From: Levilactobacillus angrenensis
Lineage (GTDB): Bacteria > Bacillota > Bacilli > Lactobacillales > Lactobacillaceae
NCBI RefSeq assembly: GCF_003946085.1
Contig: NZ_RHOB01000003.1
Location: 62,001-126,000 of the forward strand
Length of the DNA: 64,000 nucleotides
Direction of reading: 5' to 3'
Part shown: positions 1,993-59,045 of the stretch, one piece after another
How positions within the stretch are numbered: the first letter of the stretch is position 1
Layout of the letters: each line of letters begins with the position of its first letter
The notes under the pieces: generated by a model
Told to the model about the DNA's origin: nothing
What the model saw: only the letters and a program-made list of their open reading frames with translations
Database searches by the model: none
Program-made: the position numbers and the translations under genes

Positions 1993-2300
1993 CTGAAGGT
2001 TGCTGATCATCGCTAATCCGCCGGAGGCAGCCAGAGATGGAGCCAGCTGTGTCGACGGTGTTGGGACGACGGTGTTGGCTGAGGCCCTTTCTCAGCCTAC
2101 AGCGTGGGACGACTTAAGAGACTGGCGGTCTTGGCTAGACTTTCATGCGAACCTCCAGCCCGCCCCTCAGGCTGGAGGTGTTCCCCAGAGCAGGCGGAAT
2201 CTCTGGCTGACGCAGGCTCTTGGTTTCACTAATTTTAGTGGGTAGAACCCTGTCATTCCGGGAATTACCGCATCAATGCCACTTTCGACCTCGTCTTTAA
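1993..2300 (-). mobile_element. Structured MITE-like element, copy A (308 bp, internally deleted)
   Basis: This copy is in reverse orientation and carries only the first (module 1) half of the family. It is bounded by the direct repeat AACGGTAA (1985-1992 and 2301-2308), an apparent 8-bp target duplication. The left end CTGAAGGTTG matches the family terminus, and the right end has ACTTTCGACC in place of the usual ACTTTCAACC. Its right duplication abuts the T-run of the minus-strand terminator of the universal stress gene. Open frames across it (for example 2000-2245) recur only because the repeat recurs and are not genes. Confidence 0.75.
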
Positions 2301-7863: not shown

Positions 7864-8337
7864 ATGAAGAATCCGATCCGTGCGACCATCATAACCGTCG
7901 ACCAAGCCCGCGCCATGCTGAAAGACCAGCGTGACCAACGCGATGAACGTTTTCCAGAGCTAGCCGCCTCCGGTCAATACATCTTACCAGACTATCGGTT
8001 GACCCGTAAGCGAGAAGCCTTTAAGATTCGACGCCATACGTTTTTGAAGAAGCATTTCCGCTCCTACGTGGCGTTTGATTCCGACAATGGCCAGACGCTG
8101 TGGATCCATAATTTCCCCAGTCTCTCTGAAGCTTGCTTCTGGTTGAACACCGGCCTGAAGCCCAACGATACGGACTTCACCAGTTCCTACCAGGAATGGA
8201 AAACTAAGCATACTGACGAAATCGAGGTGTTGAAGGCTCAATTGCGCGCCCAACACCACGAAAAGAAAAAGCCCGTCGCCGCTGCTAAGCCAGCGCACGT
8301 CTCGGCCGTTAAAAAAGTTAAGCACACTAAGAAGTAA
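7864..8337 (+). CDS. Unknown protein with basic C-terminal tail
   Basis: A 157-residue protein I do not recognise. It lacks a signal peptide and membrane segments. The middle has aromatic-rich segments (HFRSYVAFDSDNGQTLWIH and FPSLSEACFWLNTG) that look like a small folded domain. The end is a Lys/Ala/His-rich tail (EKKKPVAAAKPAHVSAVKK) of the kind that binds nucleic acid nonspecifically. ATG 7864 follows GAGGGGG (7845-7851) at a rather long spacing. A TTG start overlapping the site is unlikely. The gene ends in a strong terminator. Confidence 0.65.
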   Translation: MKNPIRATIITVDQARAMLKDQRDQRDERFPELAASGQYILPDYRLTRKREAFKIRRHTFLKKHFRSYVAFDSDNGQTLWIHNFPSLSEACFWLNTGLKPNDTDFTSSYQEWKTKHTDEIEVLKAQLRAQHHEKKKPVAAAKPAHVSAVKKVKHTKK

Positions 8338-8341
8338 TGCC

Positions 8342-8377
8342 AACGCCGCCACTCCCACAGTGACCGGCGTTTTTTTT
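8342..8377 (+). terminator. Intrinsic terminator of the unknown gene
   Basis: AACGCCG (8342-8348) pairs with CGGCGTT (8365-8371), followed by eight T. Repeat copy B begins immediately after the T-run. Confidence 0.85.
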
Positions 8378-8797
8378 GTTGTCCACTAAAGTTAGTGAAA
8401 CCAGGAGCCTGCGTCAGCCAGAGATTCCGCCTGCTATGGGGGACACCTCCAGCCAAAGAGCGGGCTTCCAGTTCGCTTTGAAGCCTGACAAAATCAGTCA
8501 GTCTCCAAAGTCGCCCCACGCTGTAGGCTGAGAAAAGACCTCAGCCAACACCGTCGACACAGCTGGCTACATCTCTGGCTGTCTCCGGCAAGTTGGCGAT
8601 TATCAGCAACCTTGTCTTAATTAAAGGCTAGTTGTCAAATCAGCCGTTACCTGGAGCTAAGCCAACTATTATTAGCTCACACACTTGTAGCCGAGAGTCC
8701 GCCAATTATCACTATGAAGCTGTAAAAGACTAATTTTTACGCCATCAGTCGCGTGATGCCAACGTTTCTAGCTGATTTTTATTTTTCAATCTTGTCC
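8378..8797 (+). mobile_element. Structured MITE-like element, copy B (module 2 hairpin deleted)
   Basis: Forward orientation. Module 1 and the linker are intact, but the branched hairpin of module 2 is missing: GTCCGCCAA runs straight into the distal sequence TATGAAGCTGTAAA. The 5' terminus is lost against the terminator T-run. The 3' end TTTTTCAATCTTG resembles the family terminus CTTTCAACCTTC. TTGTCC occurs at both edges (8379-8384 and 8792-8797) but is too short to be called a target duplication. Confidence 0.7.
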
Positions 8798-13652: not shown

Positions 13653-13742
13653 GTGGTCACGCTTAAAAATTAGAATTTCTTGATAATTCAGTACTGAACG
13701 ACTGTTAGTTCCCTGATGAAACCCCAGCTACTCCACTATTTA

Positions 13743-14383
13743 CTGAAGGTTGAAAGATGGAAATCAGCTAGAACCATTGTCATCGTGCGACTGATGACGT
13801 AAAAATTAGTCGTTTATAGCATCCTAGTGAGAACTGGCCGCCTACCGTCCGCCAACTATGGGTTGGAACGCGGTGGGCGGACCGGACCGAGCCTGAGAAG
13901 CGGTCTCGGCCTCGCTTTGAGCCGGAAACCCGCGTCTCAAAGACGCCAGTTGTCTAAGCGGCATGAACCGTGCCGCTAAGACAACTCCCACGGCTGAACC
14001 CATATTTGGTGGACTCTCGGCTACAAGTGTACGTGCTAGCGAAAGTTGGCTTAGCTCCATGTAACGGCTGATTTGACAACTAGTCTTTAATTAAGACAAG
14101 GTTACTGATTATCGCCAACTCGCCGGAGGCAGACAGAGGTGGAGCCAGCTGTGTCGACGGTGTTGGCTGAGGTCTTTTCTCAGCCTACAGTGTGGGGCGA
14201 CTTGAGAGACTGGCGAACTTTGCCAGACTTTCAAGCGAACCGGAAGACCGCTTCTCAGGCTGGAGGTGTCCCCCATAGCAGGCGGAATCTCTGGCTGACG
14301 CAGGCTCCTGGTTTCACTAATTTTAGCGGCCAGAACACTGTCCTTCCAGGGACTATTGCGTTAATGCTACTTTCAACCTTCAG
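13743..14383 (-). mobile_element. Structured MITE-like element, copy C (641 bp, full length)
   Basis: This is the type copy. The perfect 14-bp terminal inverted repeat CTGAAGGTTGAAAG is at 13743-13756 and its complement at 14370-14383. The 7-bp target duplication CTATTTA is at 13736-13742 and 14384-14390. It is in reverse orientation with both modules present. Module 2 is closed by an 18-bp stem (13847-13864 with 13997-14014, one mismatch). Frames crossing it (13842-14060, 14139-14414) have no ribosome sites and change with each copy, so it is non-coding. Confidence 0.85.
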
Positions 14384-14395
14384 CTATTTACCAGA

Positions 14396-18334: not shown

Positions 18335-18454
18335 TAAAAGCACCACCTTCATTATTTGCTTATATCATAACCTGAAATAGTGTGGATAACAACTAATTCG
18401 TTTGTCACTTGATAAGCCAATTGGTTAACCCCGCTGATCAGAAAAATGGGCGCA

Positions 18455-18489
18455 AAAAAACCACTAACCGAAGTCAGTGGTTTTTTACT
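18455..18489 (-). terminator. Intrinsic terminator of the cold-shock gene
   Basis: AACCACT pairs with AGTGGTT around a 10-nt loop and is flanked by A and T runs on both sides, so it can work in either direction. Confidence 0.8.
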
Positions 18490-18513
18490 AAGCACGATTT
18501 AGGCTAATGTAAA

Positions 18514-18717
18514 TTAGTCAACTACCGTAACGTTAGCAGCTTGTGGGCCACGGTCGCCTTGTTCTACATCAAGGGATACGTGTTGGCCTTCTTCAAGAGT
18601 CTTGAAGCCTTCACTGTTGATAGCAGAGAAGTGAACGAAAACGTCTGAGCCGTTTTCCAAAGTGATGAAGCCGTAACCTTTATCAGCGTTGAACCATTTA
18701 ACAGTACCTTGTTCCAT
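18514..18717 (-). CDS. Cold-shock protein, CspA family
   Basis: A 67-residue single OB-fold RNA chaperone that melts structure in mRNA. RNP1 is KGYGFI and RNP2 is VFVHF, and it begins [21 protein letters not shown] 18717 is 10 nt after GGAGG; longer frames run into the leader. A promoter at 18841-18869 gives a leader of about 115 nt with the palindrome TTCTTATAAGAA (18786-18797), in line with long, temperature-sensitive csp leaders. Confidence 0.95.
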
Positions 18718-18840
18718 AAGAATGAAACCTCCATGCGCATAGCGCAATAATATTTGCATTTGAAAGCTGGGGTAAAAAGGAGCCATTCTTATAAGAACGT
18801 CGAGCCTTTAAAACTTCCGAACCATAAATACATTAACCAT

Positions 18841-21253: not shown

Positions 21254-21460
21254 ACTAAATGTTGAAAATAGCATTAACGCGGCAGCTCCCGGAACAACAG
21301 TGTTTTATCCACTAAAATTAGCGAAACCAGAAGCCTGCGTCAGCCAGAGATTCCACCTGCTATGGGGGCCTGAGGAGCGGGCTTCCGGTTCGACACAGCT
21401 GGCGCCACCTCTGGCTGCCTCCGGCGAGTTGGCGATTATCAACAACGCCAATATTCAATC
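21254..21460 (+). mobile_element. Structured MITE-like element, copy D (truncated)
   Basis: Forward orientation. The 5' end CTAAATGTTGAAAATAGCATT matches the family terminus. Module 1 has lost its centre and module 2 is absent. No target duplication is visible. It lies directly upstream of the OppA gene, and TTGGCG-17-TATTCA at its right edge is a weak promoter candidate for that gene. In 21074-21253 I see nothing further. Confidence 0.6.
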
Positions 21461-23278: not shown

Positions 23279-23889
23279 GGCTAACAGTCAAAATTAATAC
23301 GTTGACTACCGGAACGACAGCGTTCTGGCCACTAAAATTAGTGAAACCAGGAGCCTACGTCAGCCAGAGATTCCGCCTGCTCTGGGGAACACCTCCAGCC
23401 TAAGAAGCGGGCTTCCGGTTCGCTTTGAAGCCTGGCAAAATCCGCCAGTCTCCAAAGTCGTCCCACGCTGTAGGCTGAGAAAAAAACTCAGCCAACGCCG
23501 TCGACACAGCTGGCTCCACCTCTGGTTGCCTCCGGCGGGTTAGTGATTATCAGTAACACTGTGGTAGAGACTAGCTACCACCTGGGGCTAAGCCGCTTGT
23601 TATTGGTATGCGCCCTCGTAGCCGAGAGTCCGCCAACTATGGGTTCAGCCGTGGGAGTTGCCTTAGTGGCGCGGTTCATGCCACTTAGACAACTGGCGTC
23701 TTTGAGACGCGGGCTTTCGGCTCAAAGCGAGGCCGAGACCGTTTCTCAGGCTCGGTCCGGTCCGCCCACCGCGTTCCAACCCATAGTTGGCGGACGGTAG
23801 GCGGCCAGCTCTCACTACGAAACTGTAAACGACTAATTTTTGCGCCATGCGTCGTGTGATGACAATGTTTCTAACAGAATTTCATCTTG
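23279..23889 (+). mobile_element. Structured MITE-like element, copy E (611 bp, both modules)
   Basis: Forward orientation. Apparent 7-bp target duplication AGTTATC at 23272-23278 and 23890-23896. The terminal repeats are degenerate compared with copy C. Module 1 spans about 23330-23550. Module 2 is closed by a perfect 18-bp stem (23628-23645 with 23778-23795). Its P2 stem is 23656-23670 with 23680-23694. The frame at 23543-23800 is a by-product of the repeat. Confidence 0.75.
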
Positions 23890-26404: not shown

Positions 26405-26512
26405 CTAAATAATTGTCGTCTATGGTGGTGCAAGCTGGCGGCCTCTCGGCTACAAACGTGCTACCCCATAACAACGGCTTAGCCCGTGGTAGCAATTAAC
26501 CTGGCAAAGAGT
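26405..26512 (-). mobile_element. Remnant J of the structured element (linker part)
   Basis: Read on the minus strand, GCTACCACGGGCTAAGCCG and TTGTAGCCGAGAGGCCGCC match the linker between modules 1 and 2 of copies C, E and I. Both flanking modules and the termini are gone, so this is a decayed copy. Confidence 0.5.
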
Positions 26513-26525
26513 CTTTAGCTGTCAA

Positions 26526-29070: not shown

Positions 29071-29469
29071 ACCCGATAAATCCTTTCTCTCTCATACCCG
29101 TAACGATATGCATCATAATTTTCCTATTTTACCGGAATATCATTAGAATTCGGCGGCAAAATGGGCGTTGCTTAAAAAATATTTTCAACACTGCGGCGGG
29201 GCCCTGCTGATGTCCTTACACGCGAGCTTCGCGTAAACTCAACAGCATCCCCGCTACACCTAATTATCCCAGTGAATCATTGCGGATAAGCTTAGTCAGA
29301 TAACCTAATTTGTCGAAAAATAGTTCAGATTAGTCAGTTTCTCGGAAAACCACAATGAGGCCAGGGCAATTGCCCTGACCTCACGGTGATTTTGCGTGTT
29401 CACTTTTGTTGACTCTTGAGCCATATAGCTGACATCACGGGCAAAAACGTATTGCAACACAGCAACACT
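29071..29469. other. Gene-free stretch with two strong hairpins
   Basis: No coding signal. At 29192-29252, GCGGGG and TGCTG on the left pair with CAGCA and CCCCGC on the right around an inner TTAC-CGCGA/TTCGCG-TAA hairpin. At about 29353-29380 an almost perfect dyad centres on CAGGGCAATTGCCCTG with flanking TGAGG/CCTCA; it has no T-run on the plus strand. Either could be an RNA element or a terminator. No family recognised. Confidence 0.4.
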
Positions 29470-29644
29470 CCGTTAGCCGTGAGTGAAGTGAAATCTAGGC
29501 TCAGCCGGGGAATTTATCGGCGAATTTTGCTGATAAATTGGTGACTTTAAGACGGCGTTCTTCCGGCTTAAAGCAAGGTCCGCGACCGCTCTTTGGCTCG
29601 GACCGGTCTTCCCCAGCGTTCCAGCCTAGACTTTCACGTAACGG
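29470..29644 (+). repeat. Divergent homologue of the module 2 hairpin (F)
   Basis: Same branched layout as module 2 of copies C, E and I, with different stem sequences. The closing stem is CCGTTA/TAACGG plus TCTAGGCT/AGCCTAGA. P2 is AATTTATCGGC/GCTGATAAATT (29511-29521 with 29529-29539). P4 is CTTTAAG/CTTAAAG (29545-29551 with 29567-29573), where copy E has CTTTGAG/CTCAAAG. The terminal arm GGTCCG/CGGACC matches GGCCGAG/CTCGGTCC. No termini or target duplication seen. Confidence 0.6.
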
Positions 29645-29683
29645 TAAGGCAATCAGGTCAACTCACCATTGTTGAAATTCGCT

Positions 29684-33429: not shown

Positions 33430-33634
33430 TGACAACAGGCGGTTAACTGGCGAGCATTAACGGCGCTCGGCGGATAATCCTGATTCTGGATTATTTGTCT
33501 AGCGGTGTTAAGCGGAACCAGTTGCCTGTTGGCGCACGTTTCGGCTATGAGGCCAGAGACGTGCGCCATCGACTCAAAGCGAGAGCGAGGCCGAGACCGT
33601 CTCTCAGGCTTGGTCCGGTCCGCACACCGCCTCA
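33430..33634 (+). repeat. Partial module 2 relative (G)
   Basis: The right part matches the distal arm of module 2: ACTCAAAGCGAGAGCGAGG, CCGAGACCGTCTCTCAGGCT and TGGTCCGGTCCGCACACCG. The left part is different but keeps a strong stem, GGCGCACGT with ACGTGCGCC. It may be a chimeric remnant. It ends at the OppA stop codon, on the downstream side of that gene. Confidence 0.5.
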
Positions 33635-47120: not shown

Positions 47121-47757
47121 CTAAAGATTGAAAGTAACATTTACGCGTTAACACCCGAAACGACAGTATCCTGTCCATATAAACTTAGTCAAACCAGGAG
47201 CCTGCGTCAGCCAGAAATTCCGCCTGCTATGAGGGACACCTCCAGCCAAAGGGCGGGCTTCCAGTTCGCTTTGAAGCCTGACAAAATCAGTCAGTCTCCA
47301 AAGTCGCCCCACGCTGTAGGCTGAGAAAAGACCTCAGCCAACACCGTCGACACAGCTGGCTCCATCTCTGGCTGTCTCCGGCGGGTTGGTGATTATCAAT
47401 AACACTGTGTTAGGAATCAACCGCTAGAATAGCTGCCGTCTAGGGCTAAGCCGACTTTTACTGGCAAGCACTTCTGCAGCCGAGAGTCCGCCAACTATGG
47501 GTTCAGCCGTGGGAGTTGTTTTAGCGGCGTGATTCATGCCGCTTAGACAACTGGCGTCTTTGAGACGCGACCTTCGGCTCAAAACGAGGCCGAGACCGTT
47601 TTTCAGGCTCGGTCCGGTCCGCCCACTGCGTTCCAACCCATAGTTGGTGGACGGTAGGCGACCAGTCCTCACTACGAAGCTGTAAACGATTGATTTTTTC
47701 GCCATCAGTCGCGTGGTGACTATGCTTCTAGCTGATTCTTATCTTTCTTGTCTTTAG
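47121..47757 (+). mobile_element. Structured MITE-like element, copy I (637 bp, full length)
   Basis: Forward orientation. 7-bp target duplication GTATCAC at 47114-47120 and 47758-47764. Ends are CTAAAGATTGAAAG and CTTTCTTGTCTTTAG, an imperfect inverted repeat related to copy C. Module 2 is closed by an 18-bp stem (47486-47503 with 47635-47652). It lies between the lysozyme terminator and the ferrochelatase gene. The minus-strand frame 47424-47705 is an artefact of the repeat. Confidence 0.85.
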
Positions 47758-56586: not shown

Positions 56587-57762
56587 CTATGCCGTCTGCC
56601 GATGGCGTTTGATCACTCGGTTCAACACCACTGCCAGGACCAAGGAAATCGCGGCGTATCCAGCGGCACCCCAGCTGATATGGTTGAGGCCCACGGTGCC
56701 TAGCATCCCCGAAGCCGTGGCGGACCCCAAGGAAATCCCAAAATTAAAGAAGATGGAGTTTAAAGACGAGGCTAAGACGGTGGATTGCGGGTAATCTTGT
56801 TCCGCAATATTCAGAAAATGAATCTGAATCGGGGAATTTAAAATGGTGACGATCAGGCTCAGTACTAACAGCATGCCAAGCCCCAGAAACTTGCTGGATA
56901 ACCCCCATGGCAATAGTGCCAATAAAATCACGTCGGCAATGTAAAACCGTGGCATGACCCGTAAGCCGTTGCGTTCGGCCAGCATCCCCGAGAAGCGATT
57001 GCTGAGGATACTCATGATACCGATCAAGAACAGTAGCCAGTTTAAACTAGTCGTACTGAAGCCCAAGGCCGTTGTCAATAATGGTCGAATGTAGGTGTAG
57101 TATGCATACATGGTGGCGGCCGTAAACAGCACTAACGCGATGCCCACGATTACGCGGCGATCCTTTAGCAAGACCAGTTGGTTCTTCACACTCCCTTGAA
57201 CCTGTTCCACCTGACGCGGCAATAACCAGCCCAGCAAGACACACGTGATGGCACTAATGATCGAAATCAGATAGAAGGCATCATGCCAGCTGTAACTGGT
57301 ACTAATCGCCGTGCCAATGGGTACCCCAAAGACGGAGGCAATGCTAAATCCAGCGAAGATCCACGAGACCAAACCTGCCCGTTTCTCGCGCGGCGCAATG
57401 GTGCTGGCAAAGGTCATGATCAAAGAGATGATGGCGCCGGCCACCACGGCCGTGATGATTCGCGACACCAATAAAATCGGAAAACTCATGGCCAACCCAC
57501 TGAGCGTGTTGCCGACCAAGAAAATACCCATCAAGGTCATCAGCGTTTTATAACGACTGAAACGGTTGGTCAAAATCGTAATAAACGGCGTGCTCACGGC
57601 ATAGACGGTGGCAAAAATCGTCACCAAATAACCGACCGTCGCCACGGGGACCCGAAACTCCTGGGCGATGTCGGATAGGACCCCGACCACGATAAACTCA
57701 TTGCACCCCAACATAAACGCGACTAAGACAAACACAATGGCTTGCCAACGATACTTGTTCAT
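56587..57762 (-). CDS. MFS transporter, AraJ/DHA1 type (downstream paralogue)
   Basis: A 391-residue, 12-helix transporter. It begins YRWQAIVFVLVAFMLGCNEF and has the loop motif TNRFSRYKTLM, with RFSGMLAERNG in the second half. It is close to the gene at 57840 along its whole length, so the two arose by tandem duplication. Putative sugar, arabinose-derivative or drug exporter; the substrate is not known. Confidence 0.87.
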   Translation of the reverse strand: MNKYRWQAIVFVLVAFMLGCNEFIVVGVLSDIAQEFRVPVATVGYLVTIFATVYAVSTPFITILTNRFSRYKTLMTLMGIFLVGNTLSGLAMSFPILLVSRIITAVVAGAIISLIMTFASTIAPREKRAGLVSWIFAGFSIASVFGVPIGTAISTSYSWHDAFYLISIISAITCVLLGWLLPRQVEQVQGSVKNQLVLLKDRRVIVGIALVLFTAATMYAYYTYIRPLLTTALGFSTTSLNWLLFLIGIMSILSNRFSGMLAERNGLRVMPRFYIADVILLALLPWGLSSKFLGLGMLLVLSLIVTILNSPIQIHFLNIAEQDYPQSTVLASSLNSIFFNFGISLGSATASGMLGTVGLNHISWGAAGYAAISLVLAVVLNRVIKRHRQTA

Positions 57763-57839: not shown

Positions 57840-59045
57840 TCATTGATTTCGTGACGCCGTCGTCTGTGGACTGTCAATCGACTGATGCCGAGCAATCACG
57901 CGATTCAAGATGATGGCGACAATCAGAGATAACCCGGCAAACGCGGCGCCACCCAATCCCAGTCGATTGAGGCCGCCATGCGTTAGAACGATCGACGCGG
58001 TGGCCGACCCCACGGAAATACCAATATTAAAGAAGATGGCATTTAACGACGACGCCAGTAAGGTGGCCTGCGGGTAATCGGCTTCAGCCACATCTAAGAA
58101 GTGAATCTGAATTGGTGAATTGACCACGGAAATGATCAGCGTCAAAATCAAAAACAACCCAAAGCCAGTGACTTGATTGGTCATCGCTAACGGCAAGAGC
58201 AGTAACAACCCAATGTCGATCACGTAGAAGCGGGGCATGGTTTTCAACCCACTCCGTTCCGCCACCGTTCCGGACAGTCGGTTACCCAAGATGCTCATGA
58301 TCCCCAGGACGAACAATAACCAATTTAATGCGGTGGTACTGAATCCCAGCCCAGTGGTCAACAACGGACGAATGTACGTGTAATAAGCGTATAGCGCGGC
58401 CGCCGAGAAAAGAATCAGCATGGCTCCCAAATAGATCCGTTTGTCTGTCAGTAAAACTAATTGCTCTTTGATACCACCCGGCGTCTGCGGTAAATGCCGT
58501 GGCAAGAGGAACGCCATCACGAGGCAGGTCACTAGACTAAGTATGGAAATCAAATGAAAAGCAACGTGCCAGCTGGTCGCCGTGCTAATCGCGGTTCCGA
58601 TCGGCACCCCCACGACTGAAGCGATACTGAAGCCGGCAGCCAGCCACGAGATCAACATCGCCCGTTTGTGTCGCGGCGCAATGTCATTGGCAAATAAAAT
58701 AATCAGCGACTCGATTGCCCCAGCAACCGCGGCCGTCAACATCCGTGAGACCAAAAACCAGCCATAGCTCGTGGCAAATCCACTCCAAGTATTGCCAATC
58801 AAAAAGATGAGTAATAACACCATCAGCGTTTTGTACCGGCTAAATCGGTTCGCGAGCACCGTAATCAGCGGCGTACTAATTGCATAAACGATGGCAAAAA
58901 TCGTCACCAAATATCCCGCCGTCGCTACCGTCACCCGCAAGGACCGCGCGATGTCAGAAATCACGCCGACGACCATAAATTCATTACAACCCAACATAAA
59001 CGCCACTAGAACTAAGGCACTGGCTTGCCACCGGTATTTTGTCAT
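57840..59045 (-). CDS. MFS transporter, AraJ/DHA1 type (upstream paralogue)
   Basis: A 401-residue, 12-helix transporter, beginning YRWQASALVLVAFMLGCNEF with ANRFSRYKTLM and RLSGTVAERSG. It has a short extra C-terminal tail (QSIDSPQTTASRNQ) missing in its partner. The gap between the pair is 77 bp and on the same strand. The duplication appears old, since many silent and conservative changes separate the copies. Confidence 0.87.
   Translation of the reverse strand: MTKYRWQASALVLVAFMLGCNEFMVVGVISDIARSLRVTVATAGYLVTIFAIVYAISTPLITVLANRFSRYKTLMVLLLIFLIGNTWSGFATSYGWFLVSRMLTAAVAGAIESLIILFANDIAPRHKRAMLISWLAAGFSIASVVGVPIGTAISTATSWHVAFHLISILSLVTCLVMAFLLPRHLPQTPGGIKEQLVLLTDKRIYLGAMLILFSAAALYAYYTYIRPLLTTGLGFSTTALNWLLFVLGIMSILGNRLSGTVAERSGLKTMPRFYVIDIGLLLLLPLAMTNQVTGFGLFLILTLIISVVNSPIQIHFLDVAEADYPQATLLASSLNAIFFNIGISVGSATASIVLTHGGLNRLGLGGAAFAGLSLIVAIILNRVIARHQSIDSPQTTASRNQ

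Follow-up and report, generated by a model that had tools for sequence, protein, structure and literature searches.

MITEs such as RUP and Correia/NEMIS are short, non-coding, hairpin-like intergenic sequences of about 100–250 bp, present in many copies and bounded by terminal inverted repeats that match those of a partner insertion sequence (IS). What lies between the transposase-binding ends of a MITE is usually regarded as passive; in the element described here, the interior carries evidence of selection. REP/BIME palindromes are also intergenic and structured, often occur as inverted pairs and have a plausible 3′-end role. The section consulted of PMC3733652 gives a size of 20–40 bp for REP. 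The copies of bcr1, a repeat dispersed between genes, are likewise predicted to fold alike, and its model is 167 bp long in the consulted part of PMC2267715 and 147 bp in the literature; the lactobacillus family in that part of the survey, from L. johnsonii Lac-1, is genic. For mobile elements of the IS4 family, Table 1 of PMC2266710 (De Palmenaer et al. 2008) describes ISPepr1 as 1500–1600 bp long, with direct repeats of 7–8 bp and ends of the form YT-AA-YTT---A, and a passage of its text reports a preference for A/T-rich targets.

The window, i.e. the whole 64-kb stretch of DNA from Levilactobacillus angrenensis that was analysed, contains a 641-bp sequence (copy C) that we interpret, with a probability of about 0.8, as a MITE moved in trans by an ISPepr1-type IS4 transposase and carrying an outward-facing inverted pair of structured modules. 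The analysis showed the ends and target duplications, a site that is empty in a sister species, an IS whose ends match, covariation, and an outward excess of G-U pairs in arm 2 and in the pooled arms; movement by this transposase and action of the arms as RNA are inferred. The perfect 14-bp terminal inverted repeats and the CTATTTA duplication that the initial annotation gave for copy C were confirmed, and the duplications it listed for copies A (AACGGTAA), E (AGTTATC) and I (GTATCAC) were all exact. A profile search of the window yielded 11 element pieces at 9 places, and the partial pieces among them support the truncated copies that had been reported. The boundaries of copy C and the other pieces are as follows.

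13743–14383, plus strand: copy C, complete non-autonomous element, 641 bp, delimited by its ends and flanking duplication
13743–13756, plus strand: left terminal inverted repeat CTGAAGGTTGAAAG, 14 bp
14370–14383, minus strand: right terminal inverted repeat, the perfect reverse complement of CTGAAGGTTGAAAG
13736–13742, no strand: CTATTTA target duplication on the left of copy C, present once at the empty site in G025
14384–14390, no strand: CTATTTA target duplication on the right of copy C
1993–2300, plus strand: copy A, deletion derivative of 308 bp between AACGGTAA duplicates (profile match and flanks)
8332–8792, minus strand: partial copy without ends (profile match)
21255–21447, minus strand: fragment with a single degenerate end, 3 mismatches (profile match)
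23279–23889, minus strand: copy E, near full length, with degenerate ends and AGTTATC on both sides (profile match and flanks)
26435–26521, plus strand: fragment of the element (profile match)
29427–29659, minus strand: diverged fragment of the element with an internal weak match (30.5 bits) to the arm model R1 described below (profile match)
33556–33630, minus strand: fragment of the element (profile match)
47121–47757, minus strand: copy I, full length, with GTATCAC on both sides (profile match and flanks)

At its left end copy A reads CTGAAGGTTG, but a further 15 bases to the left, within the duplication claimed for it, are also covered by the profile match, which makes the position of this boundary less certain. 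The 14-bp end is not recognisable in copy E (4–5 mismatches at best), and one end of copy I has 2 mismatches, the other being degenerate. The element had been described as encoding no protein and as MITE-like, and we agree: the longest ATG frame across 40 copies is 101 aa, and Pfam returned no family for two frames within or overlapping copy C, so a protein reading of these short frames was rejected. Copy C matched nothing in plasmid and phage collections, and no description of the element was found in the openly accessible literature (PMC), which is the scope of the term "undescribed" as used here. The window also holds a cspA thermoregulator RNA (RF01766, 90.6 bits) at 18454–18818 on the minus strand, and a separate direct repeat of 170 nt with 73% identity (56710–56879 and 57993–58162).

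The genome contains at least 40 copies (40 of the 293 initial candidates were scored, and all matched), and the end motif, at no more than 2 mismatches, occurs at 172 places, versus 18 for a reversed control. Defining a complete copy by the presence of both ends within 3 mismatches retained 24 of the 40, the other 16 being left out because an end was unrecognised. Exact duplications of 7–8 bp flank 13 of these 24 complete copies, versus 2 of 552 mispaired flanks (both of which reach 7); the duplication is 6 bp long in one of the remaining complete copies, 4 bp in another and 0–2 bp in nine. Many copies are deleted or truncated. Sequences similar to copy C were detected by BLAST in 27 of 35 genomes of the genus. 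In a derivative of 324 bp (L132, G000:C22:6718-7041), the ends are unchanged and 8 bp (AACAACTA) are duplicated, but part of the interior differs. Three contigs of the genome (C13, C38 and C56) end within copies, near element positions 327–385, and the copies therefore probably contribute to the fragmentation of the assembly.

For 9 complete copies, the two flanks were joined and used as queries against the 35 genomes of the genus; among the matches listed, the junction was spanned for at least 5 of the 9 (L059, which is copy C, L020, L034, L036 and L039); four were aligned. The site of copy C is empty in the sister species G025, in which 400 of 400 bases align unbroken at 95%, with a single CTATTTA and no element; in G030, the joined flanks of copy C match at 84% with a diverged junction. 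The site of L034 is empty in G030 (84%). The empty sites that the initial annotation proposed seeking in sister strains were obtained, in sister species, for two copies, and its claim of transposition is upheld by the one in G025 together with the duplications of the 13 complete copies. The L036 and L039 junctions were too diverged for a judgement of empty sites; the L036 site is filled with element sequence in both G025 and G030, and the L039 site is similarly filled in G030. Some insertions are therefore common to several species and not every copy is a recent jump, L036 being occupied in two sister species. The element also sits repeatedly at the same point of a second dispersed repeat, which contains TTATCAGTTTTAAGCGGAACC or close variants and has a 13-mer with 11 exact matches in the genome. 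Four copies (L024, L027, L028 and L058) adjoin this second repeat, which is uninterrupted at L266, L267, L269 and L271, for example. L024 is an element inside the second repeat, with TTATCAG exactly duplicated, and other insertions also lie after TTATCAG; L024 and the uninterrupted copies of the second repeat are a filled/empty comparison within a single genome.

An autonomous copy was sought through end motifs paired 1–3 kb apart (100 listed of the 172 places), and the candidates recovered were rejected as deletion variants and a composite of two partial copies (L075); two other loci that had looked promising, L062 and L064, each appear to consist of one leftover end next to host genes. In the own genome, the transposase was found as a fragment only, at L145, where the C-terminus of an IS4-family transposase adjoins the end motif and is broken by an IS5-like element. 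Relatives of this transposase are present in 13 of the 35 genus genomes, several by weak matches only, and paired ends delimiting about 1,560 bp were found at 4 of the 11 transposase loci examined. The initial annotation had suggested looking for an autonomous IS that shares the terminus, and an IS with matching ends was identified among these in G013 (L173): it is 1,559 bp long, each of its ends carries CTAAAGGTTGAAAG, and the 8-bp sequence CTGATTAA is duplicated on either side. The three other paired-end insertion sequences (L172, L176 and L183) had no obvious duplication. CTAAAGGTTGAAAG has 1 mismatch with the end of copy C and is identical to the ends of other copies. The G013 transposase scored 470 bits for NF049925 (IS4 family; cut-off 250), and a Y-2-R-3-E-6-K spacing (YREK) was recognised by eye in P0003.

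The partner IS resembles the ISPepr1 subgroup of the IS4 family. Its end agrees with the ISPepr1 consensus except at position 7, where it has G instead of Y; the end of a related IS, CTGAAACTTGAAAG, agrees at every position. The 1,559-bp length falls within the 1500–1600 bp listed in Table 1 of PMC2266710. In the first 130 bases from each end, compared by eye, the IS and copy C have nothing in common beyond the 14-bp ends; the MITE is therefore not a simple deletion of this IS. The initial annotation took the element to depend on an unknown transposase. A candidate can now be named, since an ISPepr1-type IS with matching ends is found in the genus and a broken copy in this genome. Mobilisation in trans by such a transposase is very probable: an ISPepr1-type IS4 enzyme would recognise the 14-bp ends, and insertion would occur mostly at A/T-rich sites, with 7–8 bp duplicated.

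The interior of copy C is occupied by two arms separated by a short spacer.

13840–14021, minus strand: arm 1, inverted RNA-like module of about 185 nt, putative RNA sense leftward (R1, 50.1 bits; covariation)
14022–14121, no strand: spacer between the arms, 100 nt (interval between the R1 matches)
14122–14305, plus strand: arm 2, RNA-like module of about 185 nt, putative RNA sense rightward (R1, 202.3 bits; covariation)

R1 is a covariance model of arm 2 built from 39 sequences, copy C included, and in copy C it also detects arm 1, on the opposite strand; the element is thus an inverted pair of one module. Relative to 20 shuffles, copy C folds with z values of −10.9 and −9.8 on the two strands. 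When 81 cores were aligned and the set was reduced to 46 at 90% identity, 124 consensus pairs were obtained, and at 56 of them Watson-Crick types occur that differ at both positions. In a ranking by covariation, 46 of the top 160 column pairs fell within the consensus structure and 52 were complementary in more than 85% of weighted rows, versus 12% of random pairs; the other 108 were non-complementary, reflecting relatedness or noise. A second alignment, of 126 matches (122 distinct rows, four genera), was fitted to R1, which favours the model; in this alignment, 96.7% of cells were paired, versus 73.4% in shuffles and 32–41% in slid versions, and two-sided change was recorded at 54 of 56 pairs over the 122 rows, versus 38.7 when shuffled and 26–32 when slid. 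A model-free MAFFT alignment of the arms (72 rows after reduction) gave a 69-pair fold, with 67 pairs on both strands. Searches with Rfam at gathering and permissive thresholds returned chance-level matches only over the element, and none over the arms of 20 loci, where two tRNAs were the only matches. The term MITE-like, as applied in the initial annotation, holds for the ends and covers them alone, since the interior is an inverted, covarying RNA-like pair that is also found in other genera.

At 40 loci from genera g38, g4 and g20 (five weaker matches opposite already counted arms having been set aside), 20 had the order "minus then plus" and none the order "plus then minus", 3 had arms in the same direction and 17 had a single arm. 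The arm pair can enclose a gene, as at L213:111-980 in G297, where outward arms surround a frame that by eye resembles a glyoxalase/VOC protein, and terminator-like hairpins, likewise judged by eye, lie just outside.

The inverted arms might act as a DNA structure (a cruciform or single-stranded hairpin) aiding replication-linked transposition, or owe their symmetry to template-switch repair of imperfect palindromes, in which case the covariation would not reflect RNA. The element is indeed roughly palindromic (arm 1 is similar to arm 2 in reverse complement), each strand has a much stronger fold than its shuffles, and standard pairs occupy 96.7% of cells. Furthermore, when both arms were read in one common orientation, G-U and A-C pairs were balanced (122 vs 107, p=0.155). 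However, a flat one-orientation test is what arms pointing opposite ways would give, and splitting it by arm accounted for the result. For arm 2, with pairs predicted from both strands, G-U exceeded A-C (79 vs 30; columns 25:6; p=0.0009), and for arm 1, in the same strand reading as arm 2, the values were G-U 43 vs A-C 77 (columns 11:18, p=0.26); arm 1 alone leans the predicted way, non-significantly. In arm orientation, the pooled arms, which were picked by a G-U-tolerant model, gave 226 vs 130 (columns 39:17, p=0.005), the other genera alone 126 vs 66 (columns 30:13, p=0.014) and Levilactobacillus alone 91 vs 43 (p=0.002), all p-values of these tests being rough because the rows are related. 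The excess of G-U over A-C in the outward sense points to RNA. Also compatible with RNA are a U-U mismatch conserved at 0.92 and 0.93 and five unpaired residues that are almost invariant (0.97–0.99), and at one pair of a model-fitted alignment 52 of 72 rows have G-U; such features persist, whereas repair would tend to remove them. Unpaired columns were on average no better conserved than paired columns (0.69 vs 0.67). We consider the DNA-structure explanation rather unlikely, although it is the best placed of the alternatives.

A role of the arms as RNA, working whichever side transcription enters from, is put at even odds or slightly less. On the RNA reading, the two modules of about 185 nt are inverted, with their RNA sense pointing outward from the short spacer, such that transcription from either neighbouring gene would bring exactly one arm into its folding sense, toward the 3′ end of the transcript. 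The folded arm could then stop, cap or stabilise the RNA, and the insertion could thereby be harmless in both orientations. The spacer contains no promoter-like site, the one detected being located elsewhere in the element (13777–13806), and no terminator-like sites were found in the element.

The arms also occur outside the genus. Within the family, R1 matched 62 of the 301 genomes, and these belong to 10 of the 40 genera, its own among them (with up to 8 places scored per genome), some genera being matched only weakly (best E about 1e-6 in g5). Across the order, 17 of 395 genomes matched (up to 6 places scored per genome), two of them outside the family, both weakly. An exact 32-mer, used after a degenerate pattern was found to cover at most 19 of the 126 rows, gave a single match, in Levilactobacillus suantsaiihabitans. 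Covarying structure is thus present in mirror-image pairs in four genera, and the single-arm model matches in ten. In g38, an ISPepr1-like end (no more than 2 mismatches, in the right orientation and inside 170 nt) was found at 10 of 25 arms, versus 0 of 25 in the wrong orientation, and 4 of these 10 ends are 77–78 nt away from the arm, the distance found on one side of the Levilactobacillus element. No such end at up to 2 mismatches was found near the arms of g4 (25 arms) or g20 (12 arms); the arms can therefore lack these ends too, unless the ends have decayed past recognition.

This distribution raises the possibility that the arm pair is itself mobile by means of another enzyme and has been trapped between ISPepr1-type ends in Levilactobacillus and g38. 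The G004 subfamily, in which the boundaries of the alignment are sharp at the arm pair and such ends are absent, is what this explanation would lead us to expect, as are the end-less arm pairs of g4 and g20. Nevertheless, inspection of 22 pairs revealed neither a consistent target duplication nor another consistent end around them, the empty sites of the G004 subfamily were not resolvable at the base level, and the missing ends are explicable by decay. An independently mobile arm pair is therefore unlikely, and a little less credible than a DNA structure. Tentatively, and at slightly longer odds than an RNA role as such, we propose that the arm belongs to an undescribed class of functional RNAs, roughly 185 nt long and present in multiple copies in several Lactobacillaceae genera, arranged as outward inverted pairs independent of the direction of transcription, and spread by capture between ISPepr1-type ends and perhaps by a second route.

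The 40 copies of the own genome are located in 19 convergent, 14 co-directional and 2 divergent gaps, with 5 unclear. Convergent gaps thus account for 19 of the 35 classifiable copies, versus 7 of 36 gaps of the window (27% of gap bases; the method was somewhat different). Of the classifiable cases, 20 of 23 in g38 and 10 of 12 in g20 have the gene beyond the outer end of the arm facing the arm; no convergent preference was seen in g4, where the gene faces the arm in 12 of 22 (12 vs 10). This context fits promoter avoidance, and neighbouring transcripts often head toward the element. An ordinary functionless MITE, with a neutral interior structured by descent from a palindromic ancestor, would sit well with the many deleted copies and with insertions mostly where they harm least, but it is improbable, because baggage would not be expected to change on both sides of 54 of 56 pairs across 122 distinct rows from four genera, or to recur in other genera without these ends. 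The mobilised MITE with its structured pair of arms remains our preferred reading, and the recurrence of its folded module in related bacteria suggests that the passenger, as well as the vehicle, is under selection. If the arms act as RNA, an unannotated RNA family is scattered through these genomes, and the element would be a transposon equipped with an RNA device that works in either orientation and may lessen the impact of the transposon on adjacent genes.

With RUP and Correia/NEMIS, as these are generally described, the element has in common that it is short, non-coding and intergenic, is present in many copies and has terminal inverted repeats that match a partner IS; it differs in holding two inverted multi-branched modules common to several genera. 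It resembles REP/BIME palindromes in its intergenic location, its structure, its inverted pairing and a plausible role at 3′ ends. Its arm, at about 185 nt, is much longer than the 20–40 bp stated for REP in the consulted section of PMC3733652. Like bcr1 and other structured intergenic repeats in PMC2267715, the element is dispersed between genes and its copies are predicted to fold alike; inverted pairs of modules between IS4-type ends are unmentioned in the part of that survey consulted. It differs from its partner IS in its interior, and from ISPepr1 as listed in PMC2266710 in having no transposase, a length of about 640 bp rather than 1500–1600 bp, and a G instead of Y at position 7 of the end. 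It is like the ISPepr1 subgroup described there in its 5′-CT ends, duplications of 7–8 bp and A/T-rich targets, and the IS with matching 14-bp ends encodes an IS4-family transposase with, by eye, the YREK spacing.
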